Origin: Alphaproteobacteria bacterium
GTDB lineage: Bacteria; Planctomycetota; Phycisphaerae; UBA1845
DNA: 64,000 nucleotides
NCBI GenBank assembly: GCA_028285105.1
Contig: JANQQE010000014.1
Coordinates: 1 to 64,000 of the forward strand
Direction: 5' to 3'
In this document: positions 10,396 to 56,989 of the stretch, one piece after another
Position numbering within the stretch: position 1 is the stretch's first letter
Layout of the letters: every line of letters starts with the position of its first letter
Notes under the pieces: generated by a model
The model's database searches: none
What the model saw: the letters and a program-made list of their open reading frames with translations, nothing else
What the model was told of the DNA's origin: nothing
Position numbers and translations under genes: made by a program

Positions 10396-13278
10396 ATGCA
10401 CGACGACAAGATCGGAGAGATTAGACGACTGTATGCTTCGTACATGCAGGATAATGATCAAACAGACGTGCGCGCAGGGGAGTCAGGTGACTCGTCCCAT
10501 CTTGCTGGTCTAATGGACTTGCTGGCTAACGATCCGGCAGACTCTGAATGTTCAATGGAAACCTCATCGCGGAATGTAGGCAATGCCCCTCATCCTTTCT
10601 CTGAACTTATGACTCAAGAAGAGTCTGGTGTGATTGCTGATTGGTCCCTCGTCGATCTGATCGGCAAGGGAGGGACTGCACGGGTTTATCGAGCGATCAG
10701 GGTCTCAGAACCACATTCAAGTCCGGTCGCAGTCAAGATTCTTAAACCCAGTATGAAAACCGAAGAATTCGTTCGTCGTTTTTTAGTTGAATCCCATGCC
10801 CTCTACAGACTTCAACATCCCAATGTTGCCAGTGTATTTGAAAGTGGAATGACAGTTGATGGACGCCCGTTCATCGTTATGGAATACATTGATGGCGAGC
10901 CAATCGACCGTCATTGTGATGAACGCGCGTTAACGCTTGAGCAACGATTGGAATTGTTTTTTCAGGCATGCGATGCGGTCGAGGTCGCGCACCGTAATGG
11001 CATTATTCATCGTGACATCAAGCCAAACAACATCCTGGTTACGAACCAGGGACAAGTCAAATTGCTCGACTTCGGAATTGCCAAGCTTTGCGACATTCGG
11101 AGCAATAACGCCGCCACAACCACGGTAAGAGGCTTGGGGCTGTTGACTCCTCGATACGCCAGCCCAGAACAAATGGCGAATCGGCCAGTGGATTGCGCGA
11201 CAGACGTCTTTTCATTGGGCATTGTGCTTTATGAACTTCTTGCGGGCATCACGCCTGCTGATTTGGTTGAGCGTAAGCTTGGGAATACCAACTGGGCCAA
11301 TCAAACGCAGCCGATCTTATCGCCGAGTGCTGCTCTCGCTAGAATACGCGACAGTTTAATCGAGAATTCAAGACTCCAGAATAACTCTTTGGCGCAATTG
11401 GCAGCCGTGAGAGGTCTCGACGAGAGCGTGCTTTCAATACGATTACGGGGCGACCTTGACAACATCGTCCTGAAAGCCATTCGGCGGGAGCCGAATCGCC
11501 GTTATCGTTCCGTATCCACGTTTCGGGACGACATTACTCGGTATTTGAATCGAATTCCCGTAAAGGCAAGAGCTGAGTCTGCCGCCTACAAAGCGTCGCG
11601 TTTCATCGCCGGTAGAAAAACCGCCTGTGTTCTCATGTTGATTGCGTGTCTTGGATTCGTTGCGTCTGCGTACTTCGCGCGAAAATCCGAAAGTGTTTCA
11701 GCCGTTGCGAGAAAAACCGCTTCAGACAATAAGCGGCAGTTTGACGACTTGGTCGATTTCTCTGCGTCATCGCTCAAACTGTTGACACCTGGAACACTTA
11801 CAGAACGTGACTTGGATTTATTGTACTCGAGGGTCTCAAGTCAACTTGGGCACGATCCGCAAAACCAAGCGCAACTCTTCGACGCGATTGCTATCGCATA
11901 TCGTGGATTTGGTGCATACGCCAAAGCCGAAGCAACCCTGAGTGAATCGTTACGAATGAAGAAAAGCCTGTACGGCGTGGAGTCTCTTCCATACTTGGAT
12001 ACGCTCTATGAACTTGGCATCTTGAATTGTGAGTATTTCTATCGCCCATTGATTGCAGAGGCGATCATGCGGAGATGCCTTGAGCGTACACAACGCCAGT
12101 TTCCTGACGATGAGCGTCTAGGGCCCATGTGGCTGGGGCTTGGCATTGCCCTATATGATCTGGGAACAAATCCCTCGGCTCCGGACAACGTCTTCGAAAC
12201 TGCAGACGACGCTCTCAGACGCGCATGGCACCTGAACGGGGGCACCAAAGGCGAAATCGAAGGCCGGCTAGCCAAATACAAAGCGATGGTCAATCACCAA
12301 ATGGGGAACTTGGATTCGGCAAGTAACGATTTCTTCATATCGCTTGATATCGCTGAAAACCAGGGCAACCGAGTCGAGATCGCCGAGATCATGCTAGAAC
12401 ATGCCGAGTTGCTCGCACAACTCGGCCAGAAGGAGGATGCCGAGCAATTGTTTCGGCGGGCAATCGATTCGCTGAAGCACGTCCTACCGACCTCGCACCC
12501 AAAAATCGCAATTGCGTTGAATCAGTTTGCGCATTTCTTGTATGAGGAGAACCTGAATCTTGGAGAGGCCGAAAGCCTAATCTACGATGCCATTGAGATT
12601 CAGGGGTTCCGTAACAAATATGCTCGTTTGCTTGCGGAGTTGGAAGAGACTTGCGATCAACAGAGCACGGCGAGCGCTGAACTTCCTCTGCAACTACGGT
12701 TAGGCAACAGTAATCAACTCCTGGGTTCGGCCTCTGACTTGGCTTTGTGCGGAAATCGTGGAGTTGATCGATTGCTTACAGGTAATTCGCACTCTTGGAT
12801 GCCTAACCATCAACCTTTCAGTCATGATTCTATGAGCGGTGATCCGTTTGGCAGACTCGACAACAATGAGATCACCGAATTCCTATCGATGGACATTTGG
12901 GACACGCGTTTCGTTCATATGACACCCAAGCCGCATTCGCCAGAAGGCATCGATATGGAACTCCCTTCAGGCCAGAGTCGGCAACGTCAAATCGCGAATT
13001 GGAAATCAAGGATTAAAAAAAGTCCAACCGATTTGTTGGCATTCATTGCATCGCCCGTGAGCAGTAAACACAAACCTCGTCCCTGGGCGCTTAGGTGTGC
13101 AGCGGGTTTGGAAATAGAACTCACGGAAATACGGAACGCTCTCGCAGAGCATTCAGCGCAGATTTCAGATCATCAATCGCACATCAGTCTATTTCCTATT
13201 CGTAATGAAGCTGTAAAGCTGGGAATTCTTTCATCAGCCCAGGACTTACCGATCCCACTATATGGCGAGACTTGGTGA
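10396..13278 (+). CDS. membrane serine/threonine protein kinase with TPR tail
   Basis: A 960-residue Hanks-type kinase. The N-terminal 85 residues are a linker. The kinase domain runs about 85-385: glycine loop GKGGTARVY at 90, VAVKILK lysine, catalytic HRDIKPNN at 205-212 (RD-type, active-looking), DFG at 225-227, and TPRYASPEQM in the activation loop. A membrane segment follows (about 409-428). The outer or C-terminal part carries TPR-like helices (about 490-760, for example RVEIAEIMLEHAELLAQLG) and a final 190 residues without recognisable domain. It is co-transcribed with the ECF sigma factor and probably controls it by phosphorylation, as proposed for other planctomycete ECF/kinase pairs; that link is inferred. 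No clear ribosome site is visible. Confidence 0.85.
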   Translation: MHDDKIGEIRRLYASYMQDNDQTDVRAGESGDSSHLAGLMDLLANDPADSECSMETSSRNVGNAPHPFSELMTQEESGVIADWSLVDLIGKGGTARVYRAIRVSEPHSSPVAVKILKPSMKTEEFVRRFLVESHALYRLQHPNVASVFESGMTVDGRPFIVMEYIDGEPIDRHCDERALTLEQRLELFFQACDAVEVAHRNGIIHRDIKPNNILVTNQGQVKLLDFGIAKLCDIRSNNAATTTVRGLGLLTPRYASPEQMANRPVDCATDVFSLGIVLYELLAGITPADLVERKLGNTNWANQTQPILSPSAALARIRDSLIENSRLQNNSLAQLAAVRGLDESVLSIRLRGDLDNIVLKAIRREPNRRYRSVSTFRDDITRYLNRIPVKARAESAAYKASRFIAGRKTACVLMLIACLGFVASAYFARKSESVSAVARKTASDNKRQFDDLVDFSASSLKLLTPGTLTERDLDLLYSRVSSQLGHDPQNQAQLFDAIAIAYRGFGAYAKAEATLSESLRMKKSLYGVESLPYLDTLYELGILNCEYFYRPLIAEAIMRRCLERTQRQFPDDERLGPMWLGLGIALYDLGTNPSAPDNVFETADDALRRAWHLNGGTKGEIEGRLAKYKAMVNHQMGNLDSASNDFFISLDIAENQGNRVEIAEIMLEHAELLAQLGQKEDAEQLFRRAIDSLKHVLPTSHPKIAIALNQFAHFLYEENLNLGEAESLIYDAIEIQGFRNKYARLLAELEETCDQQSTASAELPLQLRLGNSNQLLGSASDLALCGNRGVDRLLTGNSHSWMPNHQPFSHDSMSGDPFGRLDNNEITEFLSMDIWDTRFVHMTPKPHSPEGIDMELPSGQSRQRQIANWKSRIKKSPTDLLAFIASPVSSKHKPRPWALRCAAGLEIELTEIRNALAEHSAQISDHQSHISLFPIRNEAVKLGILSSAQDLPIPLYGETW

Positions 13279-14576: not shown

Positions 14577-17500
14577 ATGATCGGTCGAAGTTCCACGGAT
14601 CAACCTGAGCCTCGATGGAAAAAAGTTGAAAACATCTTTCATGAAGCGTTGGGGCAATCCAAAAACGAAAGACGAAGATTCGTCGAGGATCGAACGAAAG
14701 ATGATTTGACCCTGCGTACTGAGGCGATTGCGCTTATTGACGCGCACGAGTGCGATTCTTCAATTTTTGAGAGTGCGGCTTTTGAGAAAGTACGGCCCCC
14801 TCAGCAACGCTACCCGGACGATCAAGATCAGCAAATTGGTCGATATCGACTCGACCGAGTCATCGGTAGAGGGGGAATGGGTATTGTCTATGCAGCTGAA
14901 CAAGACTATCCCAGACGTCAAGTAGCCTTAAAAGTAATGCGCGCGGCAGATTGGCAGGACATGCGTCGACTCAAACTTTTTGATCGCGAAATCCATACCC
15001 TCGGCCGGCTGCAGGATTCCCGCATTGCCGACATCTACGAAGCCGGGAAGACCAAAGACGGTCGACCATTTTTTGCGATGGAGTTGATTTCTGGTCATTC
15101 ATTGAGTGAATACGTTAGTAATTTTCGTCCGAGTTTGTCGATACGTTTGTCAATATTTTTGAAAATTTGCGAAGCTCTGATTCACGCTCACCAGCGTGGC
15201 GTAATCCACGGCGATCTCAAACCCAACAATATTATGGTTGTTGCAGATAATAAGGACGCTCCGTCCGACGCTACACCCAACATAAAAGTATTGGATTTTG
15301 GTTTGTCGCGACTTATCGATGATGATATGTCGCTGACGGCTACTGAAGTCGGTCATTTTATGGGCACATTGGCTTACATGAGTCCGGAGCAATTCCGTTG
15401 GAACTCAAAAAAAGACGTCGATGTGCGAAGCGACGTGTTTACACTTGGAGTCATCTTCTTTGAACTCTTGTCAGGACAGCGACCCTTTGGTCAATGCGAC
15501 GCTCTGCCCCATCAGCTCGTTCGAGCAATTTGCGAGACATCGGCGCGTAAACTAGGAACAATCAATAGAAGACTGCAAGGCGATCTTGAAACGATCGCCA
15601 CGAAGGCCTTAGAAAAAGATCTTACCCGGCGATACCAAAGTGTATTTGAGTTTGCGAGCGATATTCGTCGATTCACACAAAATGCACCTATCATCGCCCG
15701 TCGTGCTAGCGCTTGGTACGTTTCCGGTCGCTTTGTCAAACGCAATAAGTTACTGGTTTCATCTTTGTCGATGACGGCAGTCGCGCATGTTCTGGGTACG
15801 GTAGTTTCCGTGTGGCAAGCGCTTGATGCACGTCAAGCGAATGCATTAGCCCAGCAACGCTTGGCAGAAACTCGGCAAGCCGTGACATTCCTGGAGAACA
15901 TGATAGAAACAGCAGAACCGGACGTCGTTGGCCGGCACATCAAAATTGCGCTGTCATCCGCATTCAATGATGAACCGAATGAAGTGCTCGAAGACCTGAT
16001 CAATCAAATCAACCCGACAGAAATTGGGCGCGAAGTCCTGTTTGAAAGTGTCCTGCGTCCAGGTTACGAAACGATCGAGCAATTTGCAGACCAACCGCTC
16101 ATTCAATCGCAATTGCTTGCGCAGCTGGGCAGGACCTTCGTCCGTATCGGTGATTACCGGCGAGCTGATCCTACGCTTTCAAAAGCGTACGAGCTCATGC
16201 GCGAACAGCTTGGCGAGGAGAGTTCCGATGTCTTGATAACTCAAGGGGAACTGGCAAATCTCTATCACCAACAAGCGAGGTGGGAGGAGGCGGAGGACTT
16301 ATTCTCCAAAGTCTTTGAAATCCAGAGCCGAGTGTTGGGCGTTAATCATCGCAGCACTCTTCAGACGCGTAGTCGATTAGCCTTGCTACATCTCGATCAA
16401 AACAGATTCGATGTTGCCCAGGAGATTCTGGAAGAAACATTGGATAGTCAAGAGCAGTTCCTTGGTGCTGACGACATCGATACCCAAAACACATTGCATA
16501 GCCTGGCTTTGTTGTTTCAGTCTCGAGGACAGTATTCCGAATCGGAGAATCTGTACGTTCAAATGCTCGCACAGTTGCGCGAACAGCACGGCGAAGAAAG
16601 TATTGTTGGTCTGAAAGTGGCAACCAGTTTGGGGTCGCAATACAGAGCACAACGGCGACTGGAAGAAGCCGAGCAGACGATCGCTAAGACACTCGAAATT
16701 CAAACGAGAACCCTCGGCGAAACCCACCCTGACACGTTGATTTCTATGAAGGGATTTGCCGAGCTGAAGCACTACCAGGGCGACTATGAACTTGCCGAGA
16801 AAATGTATCTGCGCGTTATTGAAGCGCAAGAAAACGGCCTTGGGACCGATCATCCCGATACAATTGCAACGAAGACCAACTTAGCCATGGTCTACTCCGA
16901 CCAAGGACGATTCAGCGAATCCGAATTGCTATTTCAGAGTGTGATTGACGTTTCCCGGCTGGTCCTTGGCCTCGCACACACGCATACGCTGTCGGCCATC
17001 GAGAATATGGCGTTATCGTACGGACAACAGCGGGAGTATGCGAATGCGATAGAGTTGTTGCAAGCTACAATTGATCCGCTCAGAGGAACCTTAGGCGAAT
17101 CGCACCCAAGGACAGCGTTGGTCACCCATCGTTTAGCGGGACTCTACGATCATGCAGGACGATTTGCGGAAGCACAAGAATTGTTGTTGCGCCTCCGAAT
17201 GAATGAGCGAAAGACTCTCGGATGGTTAGACTTCCAAACGCTCAGCACATCGAATAGTCTAGGACGATCATACCTAGCGGAGAATGATTTCAACGCGGCG
17301 TATGACGAATTTGAATATGCATTGATTTCATTGAGCCAAGTCTATGGAGAGAATGATCCTCGTGTCGTCGAGTCTCTTTCCGGTCTGGGCGCGACCTTGT
17401 TGGGGCTTGGGCACTACTCTCAAGCAGAAAATGTGCTAGCGAAGGGCGTTTCAATCGCGCGCGAAGCATATATGCACGAAGACACTCGCGTGGGCGAAAT

Positions 17501-17750
17501 ATTGAGCGTCTACGGGGCATGCTTAACAAATCTGCGCCGATTTCGCCAAAGCGAAAGCATACTCTTGGAAGCTCACGAAATCCTGAAAAATGTTAGAGGT
17601 CCGGGACACGAACTAACGGTCGAAGTTATTCATCAACTAGTCAAATTATATAGTTTGAATTCGGAAGATGCAAAAACCGATTTGTGGAGCTCCCAGCTTG
17701 AAAAAGCACTAGAACTTGGACCACCAAATTCGACAGAACAGCTAGACTAG
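14577..17750 (+). CDS. membrane serine/threonine kinase with long TPR array
   Basis: A 1057-residue kinase with a good ribosome site (GGGGGAAAG). After a 95-residue N-terminal region the kinase domain has GRGGMGIVY at 97, VALKVM lysine, the catalytic loop HGDLKPNN at 211 (Arg of HRD replaced by Gly) and DFG at 240. The HGD form is found in so-called non-RD kinases, which do not depend on activation-loop phosphorylation. A hydrophobic segment lies near 392-415. Residues about 510-1040 are kinesin-light-chain-type TPR repeats of 42 residues (LGE-HP-TL...LA-LY...GR-xEAE), roughly a dozen. The repeats probably bind a protein partner. It lies directly upstream of the PAD gene on the same strand. 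Confidence 0.9.
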   Translation: MIGRSSTDQPEPRWKKVENIFHEALGQSKNERRRFVEDRTKDDLTLRTEAIALIDAHECDSSIFESAAFEKVRPPQQRYPDDQDQQIGRYRLDRVIGRGGMGIVYAAEQDYPRRQVALKVMRAADWQDMRRLKLFDREIHTLGRLQDSRIADIYEAGKTKDGRPFFAMELISGHSLSEYVSNFRPSLSIRLSIFLKICEALIHAHQRGVIHGDLKPNNIMVVADNKDAPSDATPNIKVLDFGLSRLIDDDMSLTATEVGHFMGTLAYMSPEQFRWNSKKDVDVRSDVFTLGVIFFELLSGQRPFGQCDALPHQLVRAICETSARKLGTINRRLQGDLETIATKALEKDLTRRYQSVFEFASDIRRFTQNAPIIARRASAWYVSGRFVKRNKLLVSSLSMTAVAHVLGTVVSVWQALDARQANALAQQRLAETRQAVTFLENMIETAEPDVVGRHIKIALSSAFNDEPNEVLEDLINQINPTEIGREVLFESVLRPGYETIEQFADQPLIQSQLLAQLGRTFVRIGDYRRADPTLSKAYELMREQLGEESSDVLITQGELANLYHQQARWEEAEDLFSKVFEIQSRVLGVNHRSTLQTRSRLALLHLDQNRFDVAQEILEETLDSQEQFLGADDIDTQNTLHSLALLFQSRGQYSESENLYVQMLAQLREQHGEESIVGLKVATSLGSQYRAQRRLEEAEQTIAKTLEIQTRTLGETHPDTLISMKGFAELKHYQGDYELAEKMYLRVIEAQENGLGTDHPDTIATKTNLAMVYSDQGRFSESELLFQSVIDVSRLVLGLAHTHTLSAIENMALSYGQQREYANAIELLQATIDPLRGTLGESHPRTALVTHRLAGLYDHAGRFAEAQELLLRLRMNERKTLGWLDFQTLSTSNSLGRSYLAENDFNAAYDEFEYALISLSQVYGENDPRVVESLSGLGATLLGLGHYSQAENVLAKGVSIAREAYMHEDTRVGEILSVYGACLTNLRRFRQSESILLEAHEILKNVRGPGHELTVEVIHQLVKLYSLNSEDAKTDLWSSQLEKALELGPPNSTEQLD

Positions 17751-18146
17751 CCTACGGATGCGACTTTCGTCTAGTGATCGTTGACAAATCATCGAGCAGT
17801 AGGCGATTACCGGCGCTTGCCAATCGGTTTTCATATCTCAATCCAGATTTGTCCTCTGCTTCGGTGACGCTAATCACACGCCATAGACGGCGTACCTCCA
17901 ACCTGCTTTCTGGCGCCAACTGCTGAATTAATCGGAAGTTACGCGTGCGCAAAGATGATGGGTGTTCAGCTTGGCCGACTACGGCAAACGAGTTCAACTG
18001 CAAAACTTCGATATTCCTGATCCCTTTCTCGCACGGTTTACGCTTTCAATAATAGAAGGCGGTGGTCGTTCGTAACCCGTCGTTTTGAATCAAGTGATTG
18101 AAACATTCGTTCGATTCATCCAATAGGCTAAGGCCGGAGGTTCCGA
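17751..18146. other. intergenic region upstream of the PAD gene
   Basis: 396 bases. On the minus strand, 18003-17752 is an open frame of about 83 residues with protein-like composition (for example SGLRYENRLASAGNRLLLDD), but without a ribosome site or known family. It may be a remnant or chance. No strong vegetative promoter for the PAD gene was recognised, which would fit an alternative sigma factor but does not prove it. Confidence 0.3.
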
Positions 18147-21100
18147 ATGCTCCGATCCACGCACGTGCTACTAGTTATAGGAATCTTTGCTTTTCCGGCG
18201 TTCGTATTTGCTCAAGACGATCCTGATTGTGATCAGTGGCTCGATATCAACAACTTATGTTGGGGCGTTTATTTCGGTAGTCCAGGGGAGTGTGGTGGAT
18301 CCTGTTCTGCAGGGCCACCGCCGGTGGTGACAGGTGCAGAGCCCATTCCATGCGAAGGGGCGATGGAGTACTGCTCAACATTTTATGTGGCGCCTGTTGC
18401 GACCGATGTGGACATCGTATGTGGCGGAGAGGCTACGGCTTGCGCGCCGGGAGTATGGGTTGACAACAATAATTGTCCCGGCGCTGAAACGGAATTATCG
18501 AGCTGTCCATTCAGTAAATTTGAACTCTTATGGCCCGATGGCTCGACATCAGGCCCACCTTTGAGTTGCCCTCAGGGGTCCAATTCGCACCGCCTCGATC
18601 AAGTTGGCCACTATACAATAGAAATATGCTCCGACGGTGGGTCTTTCGGCTTGTACCACAATTGTAGCACGGCCTTAGATCCATGCTCAATCGACGGCGA
18701 AGTGTGCATCTCTTCAGAATTCGACATTGGCTGCCCAAGCGGAACGCTTGAGTACTCCCCTGAGGAAGTTCCGATTTGTTATTTGGGCGCCGGGGCTCCG
18801 TACGTCAACTGGGAAACCGAGTGCGCGCCCAACTTCCCATGGCATTTCACGAAGGTCAGTGACGACACCGGCAGCGCCGTGGTGGATCCTAATAATGGCT
18901 CCATTTCTTTTCCGGACATTAGTGAAGCGTCGGAGGGAACTGTCACCGTAATGGTTACGACCGAGGAAGGATGCACGGCCTCCGGTTCGGTGACGTTTAA
19001 GTGTCCAATTGAAGAATTGGAGCTTTCACCCACCGAACACACGACGTGCGGAGGCATATCCGATATCTATGTCGTGTCAGAAGAGGACGAGTGTATATCC
19101 GATGTAATCTTCTCGATCGAACCGGATCCTGGCGTTGACGCCATCCTTTTCCCTTACTCGATCCACATCATTTACGGGTCGGAGCCGGGATCCGTACAAG
19201 TAAGGGGCGAACTCAATGACATGTGTTTCATTGGAAATTCCTTGAATGTCGTTTGCCCGACGGTGTCAACTTCCGTTCACCCTTCGACGATCAGCCTGTG
19301 TGACACTGCGACTTATGACCAGTCTGGTGCCGAGCAGGATTGCGGATTCTTACCCTTTCACATTGAAGACCAAAATGGAAACCGGTTTCCGGCGGGCGGG
19401 CCGTGGCTCAACGGAAACACGATTGCGCCAGGGTCGTCTACGGGATCGTTCAATTTCGTGACATACGTCGCTGACGTGCTTGGCGAGCCAACATCCTGCA
19501 AATGGGAAGACCCGATCACCATTACTTGTCCGCCTGGAAACGCACAAGCGCGAGTCAATGGCGTCGTAACTTCGAGTATGCGTACTTGTGACTTGGCAGC
19601 CCTCGAAGTCGTTTTTTCCCCTTCGACCTGCTACTTGGGCGTCGAGTGGGAGATTGTCGGACCAAACCCTGGAAACGCATCGATCAACGGCTCGACTCTA
19701 AATCCGGGTGATCAGCCGGCACAATTGCAACTCAGAGCGACGGTGAGCCAGTCCCCTGATTGCACTTACGAAACAACCGTTTCCGTAACATGCCCGGAAG
19801 GCTCGGTCGTCTTTCAGCGGGATGGCGAAACAATCACCGAATTCGCGAAATGCTATACCGCATATGCCGCAATGGAATGGGACGATCCGCTCTGTACCGA
19901 TACCGTTTATTGGTTCATCGACGGCGACAATCTCGGCGGTGCCACGATCAACCAGGCAACCGGCGAAATCTCACCCGGTACCGAGGTTGGCGTCTTGAAC
20001 ATCTATGCAACAACCGACCCTGAAGGCGAACGCGGCGACAACTGCTACTGGAGTGGATCGGTCTTAATTCGTTGTCCCGAAGGTGAAGCGGAGTTGCTTC
20101 TTAATGGAACTCCAGTCTCTACCATGCGAACATGCGATGGGCCTGCACAAGCAATCTTCAATACGGAGGAATGCAACCTGGCAAATTACTGGTTCCTCGA
20201 TGATCCCGGAGCCACCGGCGCCTCTGTCACGACTGGTGGAACATTCTCACCGGGTTCAAAAGCCGGAACCATGACTTTGTACGCAACCGAAACAATCCTG
20301 GGAACTCGGGGCGTCTGCGATCCGGAAATGTCCGTCACTGTGACCTGTCCAGAAGGCGAGATTGTCTTCAATCGTGCAGGAGCACCGGTTTCGGACTTTG
20401 CGAAATGCTACACTGCTTACGCGACCGTTGAATGGGAAGATCCGAATTGCCAGGAAACCGTCCACTGGTTCATTGAGGGCGATAATCTCGGTGGAGCTAC
20501 GGTCGACCAAGTATCCGGCCTGATTACGCCTGGATCTGGTACCGGTTTGCTTTCAGTCTACGCAACGACGGATCCAAACGGTGCCAAGGGTGACTTCTGC
20601 CACTGGAGTGGTTCCGTCGTAATTCGCTGCCCTCATGCCGATGCTAAGTTGTTACTTCATGGTATGTCTGTCACAACCATGCGAACCTGCGACGGTCCGG
20701 CTCAGGCGACCGTCCAAACCGAAGAGTGCACCCTTGCAAATTATTGGTTCCTTGAGGACCCGAATCACACTGGCGCGTCAATCACACTGGGGGGATCGTT
20801 CTCACCAGGAATCAAGCCGGGAACGATGACGATCCGATCGTCGGAGACCGCCGAAGGATCGACGGGCGTTTGCGATGAGGAATTGACCGTCACCGTTACT
20901 TGTCCAAAAGGTGACGTCGTGTTCAAGCGGGACGGCGATACAATTGAAGAACTTGCCAGGTGCTATACAGCGACCGCCGAAGTTGATTGGGATGATCCAG
21001 AATGCACTGAGACCATCTACTGGTTCATCGACGGCGATGATCTCGGGGGAGCCATCATCAATCGGACGACCGGCGTGATCAAGCCCGGTATCGAGAACGG

Positions 21101-24100
21101 CAAGCTGGTAGTCTACGCGACGACTGATCCGGAAGGGCGCCGCAGTTCATTCTGTTCGTGGACTGGAACGATTGAGATTCGTTGCCCCGAATTCACAGCC
21201 AAGTTGCTCCTGAATGGCAAGCATGTCACGACCATGCGCACCTGCGACGGTCCTGCCCAGGCGACCATCAATACCGAGGAGTGTATCCTCGCCAATTACT
21301 GGTTTCTTTCTGATCCCGAGGACACCGGGGCCACAATTACGCTGAGTGGCTCCTTCACACCGGGAACCAAGCCTGGAACTGTGTACTTGTACGCCACAGA
21401 AACGGCCACCGGTAAGCGCACCAAGTGCGACCCGGAACTGCGCGTCACGGTTACTTGTCCAGAGGGAGAAGTCGCGTTCACACGAAACGGAAAGACAATC
21501 ACGGAATTCGCTAAATGTTATACGGCGCAAGCCGAAATGAAATGGCACGATTCCGAGTGCGCCGACACGGTGTATTGGTTTATCAATGGCGACAATCTAG
21601 GCGGTGCGGCGATCGATCCCTTGTCAGGTCAAATCACGCCGGGCGTTAAGACGGGCGTATTGTCCGTTTACGCTACCTTGGACCCCGACGGCAAACGTGG
21701 TGACCATTGTAATTGGAGCGGCTCGGTGAACATACGTTGTCCAATCGCAGAAGTCGATCTCGTTTTGAACGGCAGCCCGACCGATACGGTTCGGTATTGT
21801 GAAGGCCCGGCGTACGCATACGTTTCGTGGTTCGAATGCGGGTTTACAGAATTCTATTGGAAATTATACGATTTCGACGATACCGGATCGACAATTGGCC
21901 CGATTGACGGTGTCTTTGTACCAGGCCCGATGCCGGGTACGGTCACGGTTGTGGCGATTGAAGGCACACCCAACATGCCAGGGGATTGTATCTATTCTAA
22001 GGATATAATGGTTGAGTTACTCGAAGTCGAATTAATGGTAGATAGTGACAATGACGACGACATCGATACATCGGATGACGAAATAGAAACCAACTCACCG
22101 GGCAAGTTTGTTTGTCGAAACAACAACAATGACAACGATAACGAATATTTGGACTATCATATGAATGACAGGCCCGTATTGGGTGAAAAAGATCTGGTAC
22201 CCTTTAAGGTTGATACAAACTTCGAGCCTGAGGGCCCTTCAACTGCGACCTGGACGATCACCTGGGAAGGTGAAGGTGCTATCAGGATCTGGGAATCGAG
22301 TGACAAAAGTGGCGAAGAAATTCAGAATGGTCAACCGTGCTTGTGGTACTTTGATTCACCGCTGTCAGAATACCACATTGAGGGGCTAGATGCGGGCGAG
22401 GTGGATATTACTTTTGAAGTAGCGCCTGAGATCGATTCAAACCCCGATTGCTATACCGACACAATCAGAATCACCGTGATTTCCACGGATATTGACGTCG
22501 ATAGCGACAATACGCAACCTAGTCCGTTTGAGGCGAATCTTACCGACCACGAAGAATTGATCGAAGATGATCCTATGCTTCCTGGCAGAATACTGGGCGT
22601 AAACGACAATGACGATGATGGCGACGGAATTATTGACTTCAACGACGCTGACGTACCAAATGAAAAAAATCTTGCGGCTGCATTCATCGACGTGGCCGGA
22701 ATGGATAGAAACGTTGCGCTGATTCACTTCGAGTTTCAAGAGAATCGGATCAGGCTTTGGACCTCGCAGCAATACCGTGATCCATCGCCCTTTTTTCTTG
22801 GCGGTAACGCTATCTCCGCCGGGCTTCATCGCGTCTCAGATTTCTCGGATTCCAGCGCAGAGCAGTTGATTAAGGTGTGGATCGAATTCATCGATGTTGG
22901 AGGTGTGCCGTCCGATCGGATCACGATTCGCGTCGATCCGGATGGCGGAGGCGGAAATGCCCCATTTTTGTGCGAAGACTCGGTGCGACTGACTGGCATT
23001 CGTGCGGACTTGTCGACAGACGGCAATAATGATGGCCAATTTAATACGCCACCAGCGATCGCTATCGACGAGTCGGTGGAAGACAAACCACCTGGAAGAC
23101 TGGTGATGCGAAATGACGATCAGGACGAAGGGAAATTGAACGGGGCGTCACCTCCGATGCTGTTAGCGGATCTTGACGATCCATCACCTTTGGATACCAA
23201 TGGAATTGTCGTTCTTGATGACATGTCATTGACTTTAGGGTCCGTTAACCCCAGTCTCTTAGCTGATAATGCTCAGATGTCCGTTGAGTTGCGAAAGACC
23301 GGCACGGGTGACTGTCGGGTCATCGCGGTGAATGGAAACGACTGGCAAGAAGTTCCGTTCGACACCGAACTGCGACCGCAATTCTTCGCGAGCACCGCAC
23401 CCTACCTGAATCACAACTGGTATGTCGAGGGATTTACCGTTGGCAAGGTCGAGCTGGAACTCGTAACCAAGATGAATGGTGAAGAAATTAGCGGTGACCG
23501 GATCGTCGTCACTGTTCTTCGTTGCGATCTTGATGTCGACACCGATCGTGACAATGACGTGGACCTGGTTGACGACGATGGACACGAAGCAGACTGGAGC
23601 AAGAATCGTGGCGCCTTCTTCAACGTGAATCACGACAACGACAGCGGTGTCTCTGGAAAACATGACGCCGTCAATTTCAGCGACACCAATGGGGTTCCCA
23701 TCGACGAGGACATGAAAATCAACGGGATGGGCGACGAGAATGACATCACCCCTCTTGTTGTGCAGGCGATCGCACCCGGCGTAACGCTTCCCGGTGAATA
23801 TTCATACTGGCTCAAGGTTGCGTCGAAGGAAGACGCCCAGTCGATTCACGTATTCGAGGAGCGGTTGGCTAACAAGTCAGTGATCTTAGGGTCACTCGGC
23901 GATCGGGTGGTCGGTGGCACAGCGGCGGCGAAAGAAGTTAACGTGACCAGTCGGATCAAAATGGACAATAAACACGACTTCGGCTTGGAAGGAATGTTCT
24001 ATCGCCACACTGGAGCGAGGAATGCATTCGACGGAGAGGTCGATCTGACACTTGAGCTACGGCGAGATACGCACGTCATTATGTCCGACGAAGTGCGACT

Positions 24101-25550
24101 GAAAGTTGCCCCCTGGCAAATGATTTCGCACAACGAGGCCACCACCGATGTTTATGCCTCGTTGATCCCCTCTCCTGTACCCCCCACCCTTCGGAATAAC
24201 GACGATTTCCGCACCGGCTTGGGTGGTTCGATGCAGCTCACCGAAATCGCCTACGACATAAATCCGAATAACCAATGGCTGCAAGATCACATCGAGGTTG
24301 GCTACACCCATCGTCCAGGCCAATCGAAGATGTACAGCGTATTCAGGCTGCCATACGACTATCATAGCGATCAGCCGACATGGCCTGAATCAAATCTTCT
24401 GGATGATACCACGGCGACATTTCAATTCGGTGTCAGGTTTGGCCTAGCAGTCGAAGGCAACTATGGCGGTAACATCGAATTGCTACCGCCTACAGCAACC
24501 CATCCACGCGGACGTATCTGCGTCGGAAGCACTCGTTCTGACGACCTTCGGCAGTTCTTCGTCGATCAGGAGGTGCAGGAGCCTTTCGATATACCAACTG
24601 GTTGGCTAGCCGTCAGTCATGTGGACGAGATATTTGGCTTCCTCCCCAGCGGTGCCGTTGGAATTGAAAGCCCGACACGCGCCATCGACCTACTCAATGC
24701 CATCCCACCCGCAGACCTACCGCGATCGGTGTTCTTTGCCACCGGCATAAATCGACCTCAGGCTGGCGTAGCATCCGCCAATGCCACGTCCAACACGCGA
24801 CTTGAAACTGGAATTGACTTGACGACCGCGCCCTGGGAATACGTTCGCATCTACAGCGGCGCAGGCGCAGGACAAGTGGCCCACATCGCCACCAAGGCCA
24901 ATGGATTCATCGAAGTGGATCAAGTCTGGAATACGGGCACGACCGTGTTAGAGAACGGGACAGCGTATTCCGCGTTCCAAAACTCAGCGAAACAGGGTCA
25001 CTTCGTCAGCAGAACTAGTTGGTATATCAATCCGCAGGCGGGTGACAACTATGTCCTCGTAGAAGGAACCCAATTCTGGGCTGACGACACTGGGGATAAA
25101 GGCGCGCCGGCTCTCATTACTGTCACGGAAGTGCTTGCCGACACAAACTTTATCAACTTTAATCTCAACGAAGTGCAACCAATCATCGATGACGTTAAAT
25201 CCAAACTTGATACGGCAGCTGGTGTTGTGCTGAGTTCCGTGGAATTACCGACTTTGTTTATGGGCGAGCATTCCCACAGCTCGTTCCCTATGTTGCGCAG
25301 CGCCATCGCTTTCAATCCCGGTCTTGCCAATTTCCAACCGGTGAATGGAAAAATCTATTTCCCCAAGCAATTTGGTCCACGTAACGCCATGAACGAGGAT
25401 ATCTTCGAAGCCAATGTGGCCGCATCGATCAGCAACAAAGTGTTTATAGACGACTGGAATATGTATCATAGGCTAACAGGCGAAGTTCATTGCGGTACCA
25501 ATACAAAGCGACACTTTCCTAGTGTAAACTGGTGGGAGAATCTACCATGA
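18147..25550 (+). CDS. giant secreted peptidylarginine deiminase with Ig-like and calcium modules
   Basis: A 2467-residue exported protein; signal peptide 1-22 (FVFA-QDD), ribosome site CGGAGG. Residues about 290-1290 are cysteine-bounded Ig-like units, including a 185-residue pair (FAKCYTA and MRTCDGPAQA) repeated four times from 549 with exact 555-bp spacing. Four acidic modules start near 1296, 1447, 1619 and 1790 (LDVDTDRDNDVD and variants) and resemble the calcium-binding middle domain of animal PADs. The end is a PAD catalytic domain: APWQM, WLQDHIEVGY with Asp2047, GNIELLPPT, HVDE with His2158 and Asp2160, FGPRNA, and GEVHCGTN with Cys2449, matching PAD4 Asp350, His471, Asp473 and Cys645. 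PADs turn peptidyl-arginine into citrulline with calcium. An extra ~100 residues (about 2195-2300) separate the His/Asp and Cys parts. The catalytic set is complete, so activity outside the cytoplasm is expected. Confidence 0.9.
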   Translation: MLRSTHVLLVIGIFAFPAFVFAQDDPDCDQWLDINNLCWGVYFGSPGECGGSCSAGPPPVVTGAEPIPCEGAMEYCSTFYVAPVATDVDIVCGGEATACAPGVWVDNNNCPGAETELSSCPFSKFELLWPDGSTSGPPLSCPQGSNSHRLDQVGHYTIEICSDGGSFGLYHNCSTALDPCSIDGEVCISSEFDIGCPSGTLEYSPEEVPICYLGAGAPYVNWETECAPNFPWHFTKVSDDTGSAVVDPNNGSISFPDISEASEGTVTVMVTTEEGCTASGSVTFKCPIEELELSPTEHTTCGGISDIYVVSEEDECISDVIFSIEPDPGVDAILFPYSIHIIYGSEPGSVQVRGELNDMCFIGNSLNVVCPTVSTSVHPSTISLCDTATYDQSGAEQDCGFLPFHIEDQNGNRFPAGGPWLNGNTIAPGSSTGSFNFVTYVADVLGEPTSCKWEDPITITCPPGNAQARVNGVVTSSMRTCDLAALEVVFSPSTCYLGVEWEIVGPNPGNASINGSTLNPGDQPAQLQLRATVSQSPDCTYETTVSVTCPEGSVVFQRDGETITEFAKCYTAYAAMEWDDPLCTDTVYWFIDGDNLGGATINQATGEISPGTEVGVLNIYATTDPEGERGDNCYWSGSVLIRCPEGEAELLLNGTPVSTMRTCDGPAQAIFNTEECNLANYWFLDDPGATGASVTTGGTFSPGSKAGTMTLYATETILGTRGVCDPEMSVTVTCPEGEIVFNRAGAPVSDFAKCYTAYATVEWEDPNCQETVHWFIEGDNLGGATVDQVSGLITPGSGTGLLSVYATTDPNGAKGDFCHWSGSVVIRCPHADAKLLLHGMSVTTMRTCDGPAQATVQTEECTLANYWFLEDPNHTGASITLGGSFSPGIKPGTMTIRSSETAEGSTGVCDEELTVTVTCPKGDVVFKRDGDTIEELARCYTATAEVDWDDPECTETIYWFIDGDDLGGAIINRTTGVIKPGIENGKLVVYATTDPEGRRSSFCSWTGTIEIRCPEFTAKLLLNGKHVTTMRTCDGPAQATINTEECILANYWFLSDPEDTGATITLSGSFTPGTKPGTVYLYATETATGKRTKCDPELRVTVTCPEGEVAFTRNGKTITEFAKCYTAQAEMKWHDSECADTVYWFINGDNLGGAAIDPLSGQITPGVKTGVLSVYATLDPDGKRGDHCNWSGSVNIRCPIAEVDLVLNGSPTDTVRYCEGPAYAYVSWFECGFTEFYWKLYDFDDTGSTIGPIDGVFVPGPMPGTVTVVAIEGTPNMPGDCIYSKDIMVELLEVELMVDSDNDDDIDTSDDEIETNSPGKFVCRNNNNDNDNEYLDYHMNDRPVLGEKDLVPFKVDTNFEPEGPSTATWTITWEGEGAIRIWESSDKSGEEIQNGQPCLWYFDSPLSEYHIEGLDAGEVDITFEVAPEIDSNPDCYTDTIRITVISTDIDVDSDNTQPSPFEANLTDHEELIEDDPMLPGRILGVNDNDDDGDGIIDFNDADVPNEKNLAAAFIDVAGMDRNVALIHFEFQENRIRLWTSQQYRDPSPFFLGGNAISAGLHRVSDFSDSSAEQLIKVWIEFIDVGGVPSDRITIRVDPDGGGGNAPFLCEDSVRLTGIRADLSTDGNNDGQFNTPPAIAIDESVEDKPPGRLVMRNDDQDEGKLNGASPPMLLADLDDPSPLDTNGIVVLDDMSLTLGSVNPSLLADNAQMSVELRKTGTGDCRVIAVNGNDWQEVPFDTELRPQFFASTAPYLNHNWYVEGFTVGKVELELVTKMNGEEISGDRIVVTVLRCDLDVDTDRDNDVDLVDDDGHEADWSKNRGAFFNVNHDNDSGVSGKHDAVNFSDTNGVPIDEDMKINGMGDENDITPLVVQAIAPGVTLPGEYSYWLKVASKEDAQSIHVFEERLANKSVILGSLGDRVVGGTAAAKEVNVTSRIKMDNKHDFGLEGMFYRHTGARNAFDGEVDLTLELRRDTHVIMSDEVRLKVAPWQMISHNEATTDVYASLIPSPVPPTLRNNDDFRTGLGGSMQLTEIAYDINPNNQWLQDHIEVGYTHRPGQSKMYSVFRLPYDYHSDQPTWPESNLLDDTTATFQFGVRFGLAVEGNYGGNIELLPPTATHPRGRICVGSTRSDDLRQFFVDQEVQEPFDIPTGWLAVSHVDEIFGFLPSGAVGIESPTRAIDLLNAIPPADLPRSVFFATGINRPQAGVASANATSNTRLETGIDLTTAPWEYVRIYSGAGAGQVAHIATKANGFIEVDQVWNTGTTVLENGTAYSAFQNSAKQGHFVSRTSWYINPQAGDNYVLVEGTQFWADDTGDKGAPALITVTEVLADTNFINFNLNEVQPIIDDVKSKLDTAAGVVLSSVELPTLFMGEHSHSSFPMLRSAIAFNPGLANFQPVNGKIYFPKQFGPRNAMNEDIFEANVAASISNKVFIDDWNMYHRLTGEVHCGTNTKRHFPSVNWWENLP

Positions 25551-26440
25551 TGAATTCAAGACGACTAAAAACAATCCTGATTGTGTTGTTGTGCGTTGCT
25601 TCAATTGCGGATTCCGCGCGATCACAAGATGTGCCTCAGCCTGATCGAAAACTCTCTGAGACGTCCGTGGCGACCATGTCGTTCGATGAACTCGCTCGAC
25701 AGCCCGAATTATTTCTCTCATCAGACTTACTCGATCGCAAAAATATGCAGGCGACACTCCGGGAAATGCGCGATAAATTCACAACCATGCTCCGGGAATT
25801 ACCGACCAATACTTCAGAGTCGAGCCTCTTCGACTCGGTATTACAGCAAATCGCAAACGATATGCGGGAACATCCGGAGCACTTTGAGGCTGTTGCCGCT
25901 TATCATAAGCCAATTCCCGGTGCTCGTGCTCCCATGGCCTACCAATTGAACTACGATCATGTTGATCCGGCTTACCGCCTGGCATGGGAATATGAGGTGC
26001 TCGCTCCGTACGATCCATCCTCACGGGTTAACTACAAGCACCGCGCACTCGAAGCGCTCACTATCATCGGTGATGAGGCGTCGATCCCTGTGCTTACTCA
26101 TATATTCGATAGCGCATCCCGAGTTGACGTCCAAACTCCGGAAGCGGCAATACGAGTTCAGCAGGACGTACTGAACGCGATGGCGTATTTTCCTTGCGAT
26201 GCAGGCATCACGGCGATTCAAGAGGCTGTCGCGAAAGCGGACCATTTTCGTTCAAAGGTCGGACCTGTGCGACCGTTGTTTCAGTGGAAGCCCTCTGAAT
26301 TCATAAAGGCGAAACTGGACACGAAATTGCCGAAAGAGAAGCAGCAACGATGGCAATCCGTCATTGACCACCGCCTTCAATCCCACGAAGATTCACATGA
26401 GGCGGAACGGCTGCGGAAGTGGCGACCAACGATTAGGTGA
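25547..26440 (+). CDS. secreted HEAT-like protein coupled to the PAD gene
   Basis: A 297-residue protein starting at ATG 25547, which overlaps the PAD stop (ATGA), with GGGAG 8 bases upstream; translation is therefore coupled. A signal peptide covers about residues 1-27 (LKTILIVLLCVASIADSARS-QD). The mature part is helical and charged. A HEAT/ARM-like stretch (YKHRALEALTIIGDEASIPVL, near residue 160) and a second (QDVLNAMAYFPCDAGITAI) suggest a small alpha-solenoid. No catalytic motif is seen. Coupling points to a partner, inhibitor or localisation factor of the PAD; this is inference. Confidence 0.75.
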   Translation: MMNSRRLKTILIVLLCVASIADSARSQDVPQPDRKLSETSVATMSFDELARQPELFLSSDLLDRKNMQATLREMRDKFTTMLRELPTNTSESSLFDSVLQQIANDMREHPEHFEAVAAYHKPIPGARAPMAYQLNYDHVDPAYRLAWEYEVLAPYDPSSRVNYKHRALEALTIIGDEASIPVLTHIFDSASRVDVQTPEAAIRVQQDVLNAMAYFPCDAGITAIQEAVAKADHFRSKVGPVRPLFQWKPSEFIKAKLDTKLPKEKQQRWQSVIDHRLQSHEDSHEAERLRKWRPTIR

Positions 26441-26705: not shown

Positions 26706-26778
26706 TACCCCCAAGGGGACTCGAACCCCTGTCTTCAGGATGAGAACCTGATATCCTAGGCCGCTAGACGATGGGGGC
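26706..26778 (-). tRNA. tRNA-Glu (anticodon CTC)
   Basis: On the minus strand the acceptor stem GCCCCCA pairs with TGGGGGT (first pair G-U), the D arm contains CGTCTAGCGGCCTAGGA, and the anticodon stem TCAGG/CCTGA holds the loop TTCTCAT with anticodon CTC. The T arm is AGGGG-TTCGAGT-CCCCT and the discriminator is A. CCA is not encoded. The length of 73 bases and the sequence are typical of bacterial tRNA-Glu. Confidence 0.95.
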
Positions 26779-54418: not shown

Positions 54419-56656
54419 CTACCCGTTGTGCTGATTGCGGATGATTTCGCTGGCTTCGTTGACTTCGAGATTCAGTGCGCCGAGCGCCTGGCTTGCTGCC
54501 GTGCGAAGCGTCAAGTCCGAGTTGTCTGCCGCCTGCTTCACGAGCCTTTGAATCTGATCGGATTCGAGATCGTTGCTCTGATGCTTGGCCGATTCTGCCA
54601 GGGCGTTGAACATCTCGACGCGAACTGCGGGTGAGTTCTCGGCATCGAGCGCAGTTTCGCAGATGGCCTTCTGACCATTCGCCGACGACGTCAGCGCCAG
54701 CACCTGCGCCGCGCGAATGCGAAGTGCTTCCTCCTCTTCAGCCAATGCACCGATCAATGCCGGGATGGCCGGGCGAATGTCGATGACCGTCCGGCCGTCG
54801 ATCGCCACCAACCGAAGTGCATCTGCAGCCCGAAGCGCCAGCGAAGCATCCTGCGGGCCGCCCATCGCCGAACCGTTGTCTGCCAGCATGTCGTCAATCT
54901 TCTTGAGAATTTCCGGCGAACTGGCATTGGCTTCAATCGTTTCCACCATCTCGCGACCGACGGCTGCTTCCTGCGCGCGATACTCTTCATTGGGATGCGA
55001 CAGAATCACGATCGGCGTGCGGGCAAATCGGTACTCGCGGCGAATCATGTCGACGGCTTCAGTCAATTTCGGCGAGGTCATGTTCGTTGACAAGACGATC
55101 CCCGCGATGAATTGAAACTCGCGACGCGCACGATTGAGCGAAGCGGCAAGGTTCGACTCGGCTGCAACATCTGCGCCACCGCTGCGAAATTCGCCCGCCA
55201 ACCGATTCAGGTTTCCAGAATCCGAATCGACCAGCGCGATCTGCGTGGTACCGCCCAATCGAAGCGCTTCGGCCAATGTGGGACCAATCAAATCAGAACC
55301 GGTGAACGGCGCCTTCGGAAGCGCCCGCGCAAGTGCGATCGCCGCCTTGATGCGAACTTCGGCATCGGGGAATCGCAGCGACTGAACCAGCGGTTGTTTG
55401 TAATCTTCCGTACCGATCAGCGAAGTAGAGCCAGCCACCTCATCGAGCGCGGCGATCGCGCCCAGAGCGACGCTTTTGTCGTTGTCCGCAACGGCTCGGC
55501 CCAACACCAAGTGACAGTACATCGGGCCAGCCGCTTGCGAGAAGTACAGGCTTCGCGGGAAATCTTCACCGCGGGTTGGGTCGGCATCGCTGCCGGCGTC
55601 GGCTTCGGCGCTTTCCACGTCCATGCCCAAACGGGCTTCGCGACGAATGTTGGCCGCCAACCAAAGCGAGATCGCCAGACGGTTGTCCGGATCGACGATC
55701 AACGCCTCTTCGCACGCCCGCATCGCCATCACCGAACCGAAGATTTCCGTTGGGACTTTCTTTGAAACCAGCGTTCCGTCGTCGAGGTACCAGACGTTCG
55801 CCAACGGTACGCGCGGGTCGGCTTTGACCGATCCTTCTTCGTTGTAGTAGTCGTTGGCCAGTCGAACAAACGCATCGGCGATGCTGGCCATCTGCGAGCG
55901 GTCGGAAGTACGCTCGATTTTTTGCAGCGCATCAAGCGTGTTTTGTCGGGTTTCGGGAAGGGTATCCGATGCGTCGAGGGTCTTAAGCAGATACGGTGTG
56001 GCCTGCGGATAACCAAGCTCGCCTAACGCCCACGCCACGTTGCGACGGATGTTCGGATCGCTGTCGCTCAGCGCCATCACCAACGGTCCGACACCATCGC
56101 GACCAAGCTTGGGCAGAGCGCGAACGATACGCGGCCAGGACGATTCTTTCGAGACGTCTTTCAGCGCTGCCATCATCTCGGGAACAGCGTACTCACCGGA
56201 CTCGCGCAAACGCGAGATGGCATTGTATTCCATCTGCGGCGTACCCGAGAGGTTGTCGATGTTGTTGATGATTCGCGATTCATCCTGACGTTCGCGGAAC
56301 TCGCCTTCGCGGATGAGGTCGAGGATTTTCTGCGCGGTGTCGCGCATCGAGGTGTGACGAATCAATGTTAATAGCGTCGGGATGCTTTCGGTGTCGGCAT
56401 CGGACAGTTTCATCAACTGCACCGGATCGACGTTTTCGTCCGATAGAAGTTTGCTGGCGTTGGCTTCGGCTTCGGCGAACTTTCCGATGCGGGCGTAATG
56501 GAGAAAGTCGCTGTAGAGTCGCGCCATTTCTTCCGACGCATCAGCCCCGTCTTCACCAAGTGCCATCGTCGTGGGAAGTACCAGCATCGCCACGCAAACG
56601 AATGTCCGAAGCATTCGAACGGCGAAAGGTGAGCGAACGTTGAACAATGAGGCCAT
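54419..56656 (-). CDS. secreted HEAT-repeat protein
   Basis: A 745-residue exported alpha-solenoid. ATG 56656 has GGAGAA 7 bases upstream; a signal peptide follows (MLRTFVCVAMLVLPTTMALG-ED). HEAT repeats are clear at about 130-240 (GDSDPNIRRNVAWALGELGYPQATPYLL-like) and 600-745 (EEEALRIRAAQVLAL, SDLTLRTAASQALGAL). The centre (about 440-580) has alternating hydrophobic strands of a response-regulator-like type (ALVDSDSGNLN..., TPIVILSHPNEEYRAQEAA), suggesting a degenerate receiver domain without the usual acid triad. So it may sense or scaffold other envelope proteins. No catalytic motif is seen. Confidence 0.78.
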   Translation of the reverse strand: MASLFNVRSPFAVRMLRTFVCVAMLVLPTTMALGEDGADASEEMARLYSDFLHYARIGKFAEAEANASKLLSDENVDPVQLMKLSDADTESIPTLLTLIRHTSMRDTAQKILDLIREGEFRERQDESRIINNIDNLSGTPQMEYNAISRLRESGEYAVPEMMAALKDVSKESSWPRIVRALPKLGRDGVGPLVMALSDSDPNIRRNVAWALGELGYPQATPYLLKTLDASDTLPETRQNTLDALQKIERTSDRSQMASIADAFVRLANDYYNEEGSVKADPRVPLANVWYLDDGTLVSKKVPTEIFGSVMAMRACEEALIVDPDNRLAISLWLAANIRREARLGMDVESAEADAGSDADPTRGEDFPRSLYFSQAAGPMYCHLVLGRAVADNDKSVALGAIAALDEVAGSTSLIGTEDYKQPLVQSLRFPDAEVRIKAAIALARALPKAPFTGSDLIGPTLAEALRLGGTTQIALVDSDSGNLNRLAGEFRSGGADVAAESNLAASLNRARREFQFIAGIVLSTNMTSPKLTEAVDMIRREYRFARTPIVILSHPNEEYRAQEAAVGREMVETIEANASSPEILKKIDDMLADNGSAMGGPQDASLALRAADALRLVAIDGRTVIDIRPAIPALIGALAEEEEALRIRAAQVLALTSSANGQKAICETALDAENSPAVRVEMFNALAESAKHQSNDLESDQIQRLVKQAADNSDLTLRTAASQALGALNLEVNEASEIIRNQHNG

Positions 56657-56989
56657 GACATTCTCCGTCGAATCTTCGGCTCCGTATTTTGTGCGGATAC
56701 CGGGAAGTTTTTTTGCGCGAAGCGGGTCTAACAGCTGGGATACGACGCCAGTCGCCAAGGCGATCGTGCGATTGTGAAAATCACTGCCACAACTCGCCTG
56801 CATTAGAATTCGCGTGCATTGAGCGCTCAGCAGGTTGTGAGTATAAATGCACCGCCGAACGCGTCAATCGACACCTTCGGCGGCACAAGGGTTTATGAGC
56901 GATGCCCGCACCCCGAAAAGCCGTGCTGCACAGGATGAATTGCTGGTGCAATAAAGACCATTCCTGGAGCTCAGATTTGCTGGCATACG
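56657..56989. other. intergenic region, nothing recognised
   Basis: 333 bases between the HEAT-repeat gene and the small lipoprotein gene. Both are on the minus strand, so it should hold the HEAT gene promoter. No clear motif or gene is visible. Confidence 0.3.

Follow-up and report, generated by a model that had tools for sequence, protein, structure and literature searches.

A giant, predicted exported peptidylarginine deiminase of a Phycisphaerae bacterium and its coupled partner gene

The analyzed window, a stretch of 64,000 nucleotides from a bacterium of the Phycisphaerae (contig JANQQE010000014.1, positions 1 to 64,000), contained an ORF at 18147-25550 (+) that starts with ATG and encodes a giant peptidylarginine deiminase (PAD) of 2,467 aa, predicted to be exported. 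A Shine-Dalgarno sequence (GGAGG, 18136-18140, +) lies 6 nt 5' of the ATG. Sequence inspection and a hydropathy test both supported the signal peptide described in an earlier note on this DNA, which occupies residues 1-22 (MLRSTHVLLVIGIFAFPAFVFA/QDD; 18147-18212, +), with a predicted cleavage site at FVFA/QDD. It is followed by a Cys-rich region (residues 23-554; 18213-19808, +) with 32 Cys and a Lys+Arg content of 2%; this depletion of Arg across the N-terminal ~530 residues left after cleavage is a candidate guard against self-citrullination. Alternating Ig-like repeats, with a period of ~185 aa and 61-66% identity, occupy residues 555-1290 (19809-22016, +). The earlier note had counted more than 1,000 residues of Ig-like repeats and acidic modules; the repeats are real, but the regular ones span ~735 residues (about 555-1290).

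The acidic modules mentioned in the same note are present as well, and they match PAD_M, the domain that precedes the catalytic domain. With a profile combining PADs of other genomes with the C-terminal copy in the window, matches were obtained to module 1 (residues 1291-1446; 22017-22484, +; match 1287-1424, i-E 2.5e-5), module 2 (residues 1447-1616; 22485-22994, +; match 1412-1540, i-E 1.3e-3), and module 3 (residues 1617-1788; 22995-23510, +; match 1615-1788, i-E 5e-4). Module 1 aligned to the other modules with a shuffle z of 5-6, and acidic D-x-D-x-D and N-x-D-x-D loops carried the alignment of the whole stretch 1291-1788 with the PAD_M domain proper. From these profile matches and loop alignments, the acidic modules are read as three extra PAD_M-like repeats of calcium-binding type. 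Comparable upstream copies were found in three other PADs (loci L053, L054, and L059), and a weak copy in a fourth (L056). The PAD_M domain proper (about residues 1789-1985; 23511-24101, +) was delimited by the structural model, which aligns to PAD4 from residue 110, and by its calcium ligands. The PAD_C catalytic domain follows (residues 1978-2467; 24078-25547, +; PF03068 matches at 24078-24695 and 25104-25538) and is interrupted by a beta-rich insert of ~110 residues (about 2198-2310; 24738-25076, +) that is seen in alignments and as strands in the model.

The stop codon of the PAD gene overlaps the start codon of a second gene by 4 nt (ATGA, 25547-25550, +; junction sequence CCATGA). This partner gene (25547-26440, +), which the earlier note had not mentioned, encodes a protein of ~296-297 aa that has a signal peptide and is predicted to be all-alpha. 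A tRNA-Glu (CTC) gene on the opposite strand (26706-26778, -) bounds the two-gene unit. Upstream of the PAD gene lie two genes for Ser/Thr kinase-TPR proteins (10396-13278 and 14577-17750), the nearer of which is on the same strand at a distance of ~400 nt and shows no sign of an operon with PAD.

The C-terminal part of the protein is a PAD by sequence and by fold. The catalytic set and local motifs proposed earlier were all found in the ORF translation at the positions given for them: APWQM at 1988, WLQDHIEVGY at 2044, GNIELLPPT at 2108, HVDE at 2158, GEVHCGTN at 2445, and WWENLP at 2462. Of the two Pfam families that the earlier note had expected, PF03068 was matched with 153 bits and E 1.3e-44 (Pfam scan, cut-off 25) in two stretches covering profile positions 2-223 and 249-395; PF08527 (PAD_M) gave no match at the Pfam cut-off, so the domain is termed PAD_M-like only, although its structure and calcium ligands agree with PAD_M. 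A phmmer search against the PDB matched PAD1-4 and PAD6 with E 1e-22 and weaker, and the alignment extended to the last residues of human PAD2, in line with the proposed equivalence to the end of animal PADs. An AlphaFold2 model of residues 1785-2467, built from a 49-row alignment, had a pLDDT of 86.2 and a pTM of 0.89. The predicted likeness to PAD4 was borne out, with 501 residues superposed on 5n0m at 2.4 A (Z 44.3), and Foldseek matched the model to PAD with E 1e-40. The catalytic residues Asp2047 (24285-24287, +), His2158 and Asp2160 (24618-24626, +), and Cys2449 (25491-25493, +) align with D351, H471, D473, and C647 of PAD2, respectively; the aspartate is kept in all rows having a residue there, and the other three are invariant across 97 rows. 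Together, the matches and the model indicate a real PAD with a full catalytic tetrad, for which activity is predicted.

The calcium sites were more unevenly conserved. Their reading and the PAD numbering draw in part on general knowledge of PAD2 and PAD4. Beyond this, both follow PMC8826395. In the PAD_M-like domain the ligands are D1798, D1800, D1802, N1828, D1830, D1832, D1863, and D1866; the PAD2 ligands D123, D125, D127, N154, D156, D169, D177, and D180 are kept, and positions E131 and E158 show conservative changes. At calcium site 1, Q350, E354, and E412 are kept. At site 2, E352 is replaced by H, D370 by R, and S371 by L, with D374 kept, and the switch residue D389 is replaced by T. On the substrate side, R347 and R373 of PAD2 (Arg346 and Arg372 of PAD4) are Gln and Tyr here; substrate handling may differ for this reason. 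PAD_N is absent, as the Pfam scan of the window protein found no PAD_N family and the model matches PAD4 only from residue 110; where PAD_N would stand, another PAD_M-like module precedes the PAD_M domain proper. The description of a complete eukaryote-type PAD therefore holds for the enzyme identity and the tetrad, but not for PAD_N, most site-2 ligands, D389, or R347/R373.

Loss of most site-2 ligands, of the D389 switch, and of Arg346/Arg372, downstream of long adhesive-looking repeats, could mark the domain as a pseudoenzyme (the annotation given to PAD6) that serves in structure or binding instead. This reading is improbable. All four catalytic residues are kept, as are the acidic and amide ligands of site 1 and the PAD_M sites. 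Furthermore, most PADs outside the animal/cyanobacterial clade lack site 2 (within that clade E352 and D370 are conserved, whereas outside it they are mostly lost), and the model resembles PADs with bound inhibitor and calcium (Z 44) more than it does apo PAD2 (Z 36-38).

The comparison set comprised about 100 other bacterial PADs. In a tree of 97 rows, made by a quick method with SH-aLRT values as the only support, the window PAD fell in an 11-row clade (98) with the PAD of Zobellia as its nearest relative. Animal PAD2 fell into a 26-row clade (99) together with cyanobacterial sequences and those of two other bacteria, nested in a 34-row clade that also holds Vibrio, Paenibacillus, and others (99). 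From this position the label "eukaryote-type" is misleading: the protein is a PAD from outside the animal line. The ~110-aa insert is common to the window PAD and those of Phycisphaerae, Zobellia, Roseibacillus, a Dehalococcoidia MAG, and a Nitrososphaera MAG; identity to the window PAD is 44-46% for Zobellia and 33-36% for the other relatives in this insert-bearing clade. The Nitrososphaera sequence (L083:6708-9509, JAJUFP010000007.1) lies on a 152-kb contig, ~6 kb from an archaeal initiation factor 2 alpha gene (PF07541), and is apparently a true archaeal PAD; the sole archaeal match in PMC8826395 was judged a misattribution.

Bacterial PADs have been described as occurring in <1% of bacterial species, being most prevalent in cyanobacteria (PMC8826395), and have so far been treated mainly as rare and as a source of the animal gene. 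Of the genomes sampled, 6 of 100 relatives, 25 of 392 Planctomycetota, and 42 of 146 Myxococcota carried a PAD, and a scan of 84,980 species genomes with a pattern built from six rows returned at least 524 PAD stretches. A search with the single window protein as query retrieved no relative in genome contigs, the viral contigs and phages searched held no PAD relative, and the plasmid search gave one weak Streptomyces match. These counts do not agree with the view that the relatives are mainly cyanobacterial, and the table in PMC8826395 itself lists more actinobacterial than cyanobacterial species with PAD. Nor is the giant form unique: the relatives had been supposed to be far smaller, but PAD ORFs of ~1,600-3,150 aa also occur in other Planctomycetota, Verrucomicrobia, Zobellia, and Actinoplanes. 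PADs appear to be far commoner in bacteria than reported, and most are predicted to be exported; their presence in 29% of sampled Myxococcota points to a common class of such enzymes. One Phycisphaerales genome (G049, CP070827.1; L060, L061, L075, L076, and L077) was matched 14 times by the PAD profile, both in several whole genes and in some fragments; this is a lineage-specific expansion.

Across all PAD loci examined, 40 downstream ORFs formed a single homology cluster, with members in Planctomycetota, Myxococcota, Verrucomicrobiota, Fibrobacterota, Actinomycetota, and Proteobacteria. A separate whole-genome search yielded 30 myxobacterial PAD loci, 27 of them new and three repeats of loci seen before; a partner lies directly downstream in 28 (69-266 bits), overlapping the PAD gene by 4 nt in 27. 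When the partner profile was run against the 146 whole Myxococcota genomes, 37 matches were obtained; they fell in 34 genomes, each of them with a PAD, and none in PAD-less genomes. Only one match was an orphan, the other 36 adjoining a PAD on the same strand (Fisher p 6e-26), and chance neighborhood of PAD and partner is rejected by this test. At two loci (L184 and L185; G616:C222 and G586:C84) the partner stands upstream of the PAD, so that the two genes stay linked even where their order is reversed. With the planctomycete partner profile, many unrelated HEAT proteins are matched at 35-50 bits as well, and only matches of 257-516 bits were counted; all 14 of these adjoin a PAD. The myxobacterial and planctomycete partners belong to one family (hhalign 99.4%, E 5e-22), which is of HEAT type: one member matched HEAT_2 with 33 bits, and alphaRep and HEAT proteins were matched in the PDB. 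The open literature searched gave no earlier description of the linked gene, and PMC8826395 mentions no signal peptides, operons, neighbors, or Planctomycetes; the novelty of the partner is provisional because the search covered open papers only.

Export and partner were distributed alike. By a crude hydropathy-based test, 64 of the 80 PADs that lie outside the animal/cyanobacterial clade carried a signal peptide or lipobox, versus 2 of 31 inside, and both of the latter come from unlikely TTG starts. Many of the exported-looking PADs outside carry a lipobox, and most myxobacterial PADs are lipoprotein-like proteins of 600-800 aa. Beside the PADs inside the clade no partner-family gene was found; nearly all lack a downstream partner, and the few downstream ORFs are unrelated. 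This contrast indicates that partner, export, and partial loss of the calcium switch go together. Outside the animal/cyanobacterial clade, PADs appear from their sequences to be mostly exported proteins or lipoproteins, whose genes are coupled with one for another exported product, in many cases through a stop/start overlap of 4 nt, and to form a large class that was previously unseparated. PADs outside this clade that have a signal peptide but no partner-family gene directly downstream also occur in G206 (L065), G208 (L068), and Nocardia (L145, L152, and L158), and the exported-looking PAD of L083 has no adjoining partner.

The partner in the window is more diverged. Its all-helical AlphaFold model had a pLDDT of 68 and gave no significant match in the PDB, where the top rows were mostly helical repeats. 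The Zobellia PAD has a homologue directly downstream (E 1e-16). Together with a weaker relative at L084, the two form one group, and L055, L058, and L061 form another; no downstream partner was seen at L082 and L083 of the same insert-bearing clade. The HEAT partner profile matched the window partner at E 4e-5 (194 window ORFs), and another window ORF scored better; this ORF (54419-56803, -), matched at E 8e-6, is probably a generic helical-repeat match. In hhalign, the window/Zobellia partners scored low against the other partners, with 4% and 21% against the HEAT family, and for this reason a single family is not claimed for all partners: the window partner is clearly homologous by sequence to that of Zobellia only, and a place in the HEAT family is tentative for it and for the other partners of its clade. 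Weak similarity to that family would suit a chance neighbor unrelated to PAD, yet this is very improbable for a gene that shares an ATGA overlap with PAD, encodes a signal peptide, and has a homologue at the equivalent position next to the closest PAD, which comes from another phylum.

Taken together, the probable explanation is that the window encodes an exported, Ig-rich PAD that deiminates extracytoplasmic proteins, and that it represents a class made with an exported partner that controls or assembles it. The protein would be exported by the Sec route through its signal peptide, would take up calcium at site 1 and at the sites of PAD_M as it folds, and would deiminate arginines of extracellular or surface proteins; the exported partner would bind the PAD after export, as an inhibitor (the first choice) or as an assembly factor. 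Coupling, shared export, and all-or-none co-occurrence suggest that the partner is most likely dedicated to the exported PAD, as its controller or chaperone. Cytosolic animal and cyanobacterial PADs are calcium-gated. Outside the cell calcium is always high and calcium gating would be unworkable, so that control by a partner may be expected there for an enzyme lacking part of the calcium switch.

That the partner is instead an obligate folding factor or a second subunit, such as an activator or substrate receptor, is somewhat unlikely. Such a role would fit translational coupling with a 4-nt overlap in 27 of 30 loci, shared export, and linkage that is kept where the order is swapped (G616 and G586), but inhibition would explain the linkage equally, and close homologues of this domain in cyanobacteria and animals need no partner to fold and function (PMC8826395). 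Less likely still is an effector with its immunity protein, the PAD being a toxin tip against competitors or prey and the partner guarding the producer's envelope. The enzyme does stand C-terminal to long repeats, effector gene precedes partner gene, the partner is exported, and partners diverge fast (27% identity versus 44% for the PADs); Imm-HEAT is listed among polymorphic toxin immunity proteins (PMC3482391), and predatory Myxococcota are PAD-rich. On the other hand, unlike variable immunity genes, the main partner family has been kept in several phyla, with one orphan in 37, and most myxobacterial PADs look like short lipoproteins without delivery domains. The text of the polymorphic-toxin survey PMC3482391 that was searched does not mention PAD, and the Pfam scan of the 2,467 aa found no trafficking or pre-toxin domain.

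The preferred reading of an exported PAD with a dedicated partner can be carried further, though tentatively. PADs outside the animal/cyanobacterial clade may be two-component exported systems in which the PAD lacks the full calcium switch and a dedicated, secreted HEAT-type partner replaces calcium as the gate. In that case bacteria would have modified extracellular proteins by citrullination widely and since ancient times, and the cytosolic calcium-gated animal type would be derived, with the partner dropped. An inhibitory partner would, to our knowledge, be the first natural protein regulator of PADs and could guide work on PAD4 and PAD2 in disease; a partner acting as chaperone or subunit would reveal how an exported PAD is built. 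Either way, the targets of extracellular bacterial citrullination become testable.

Compared with animal PADI1-4 and PADI6, the window PAD shares the PAD_C fold, the catalytic Asp/His/Asp/Cys, a PAD_M module with its ligands, Q350/E354/E412, and the C-terminal end. It differs in lacking PAD_N, in its ~110-aa insert, predicted export, and coupled partner gene, and in the changes to most site-2 ligands, D389, and R347/R373, and it lies outside the animal clade. Porphyromonas gingivalis PPAD is likewise an exported bacterial protein-citrullinating enzyme, an activity that is predicted for the window PAD; PPAD is calcium-independent and biased to C-terminal arginines. It belongs to a family phylogenetically distinct from PADs (PMC8826395). 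The cyanobacterial PADIs of clade Ai (PMC8826395) are bacterial PAD_M-PAD_C enzymes of the same family, and a cyanobacterial PADI is active on eukaryotic proteins (PMC8826395); unlike the window PAD, they lack a signal peptide by the crude test and lack the family partner. Polymorphic toxin/Imm-HEAT pairs (PMC3482391) are arranged alike, in that a long exported protein ends in an enzyme and the next gene encodes an alpha-helical partner, whereas the PAD partner family is conserved across phyla with few orphans, and no delivery domain was identified. The closest counterpart is the PAD of Zobellia amurskyensis (L081, 1,714 aa), which has the same insert and the same kind of partner directly downstream, although the N-terminal parts of relatives in the insert-bearing clade are different and mostly shorter.
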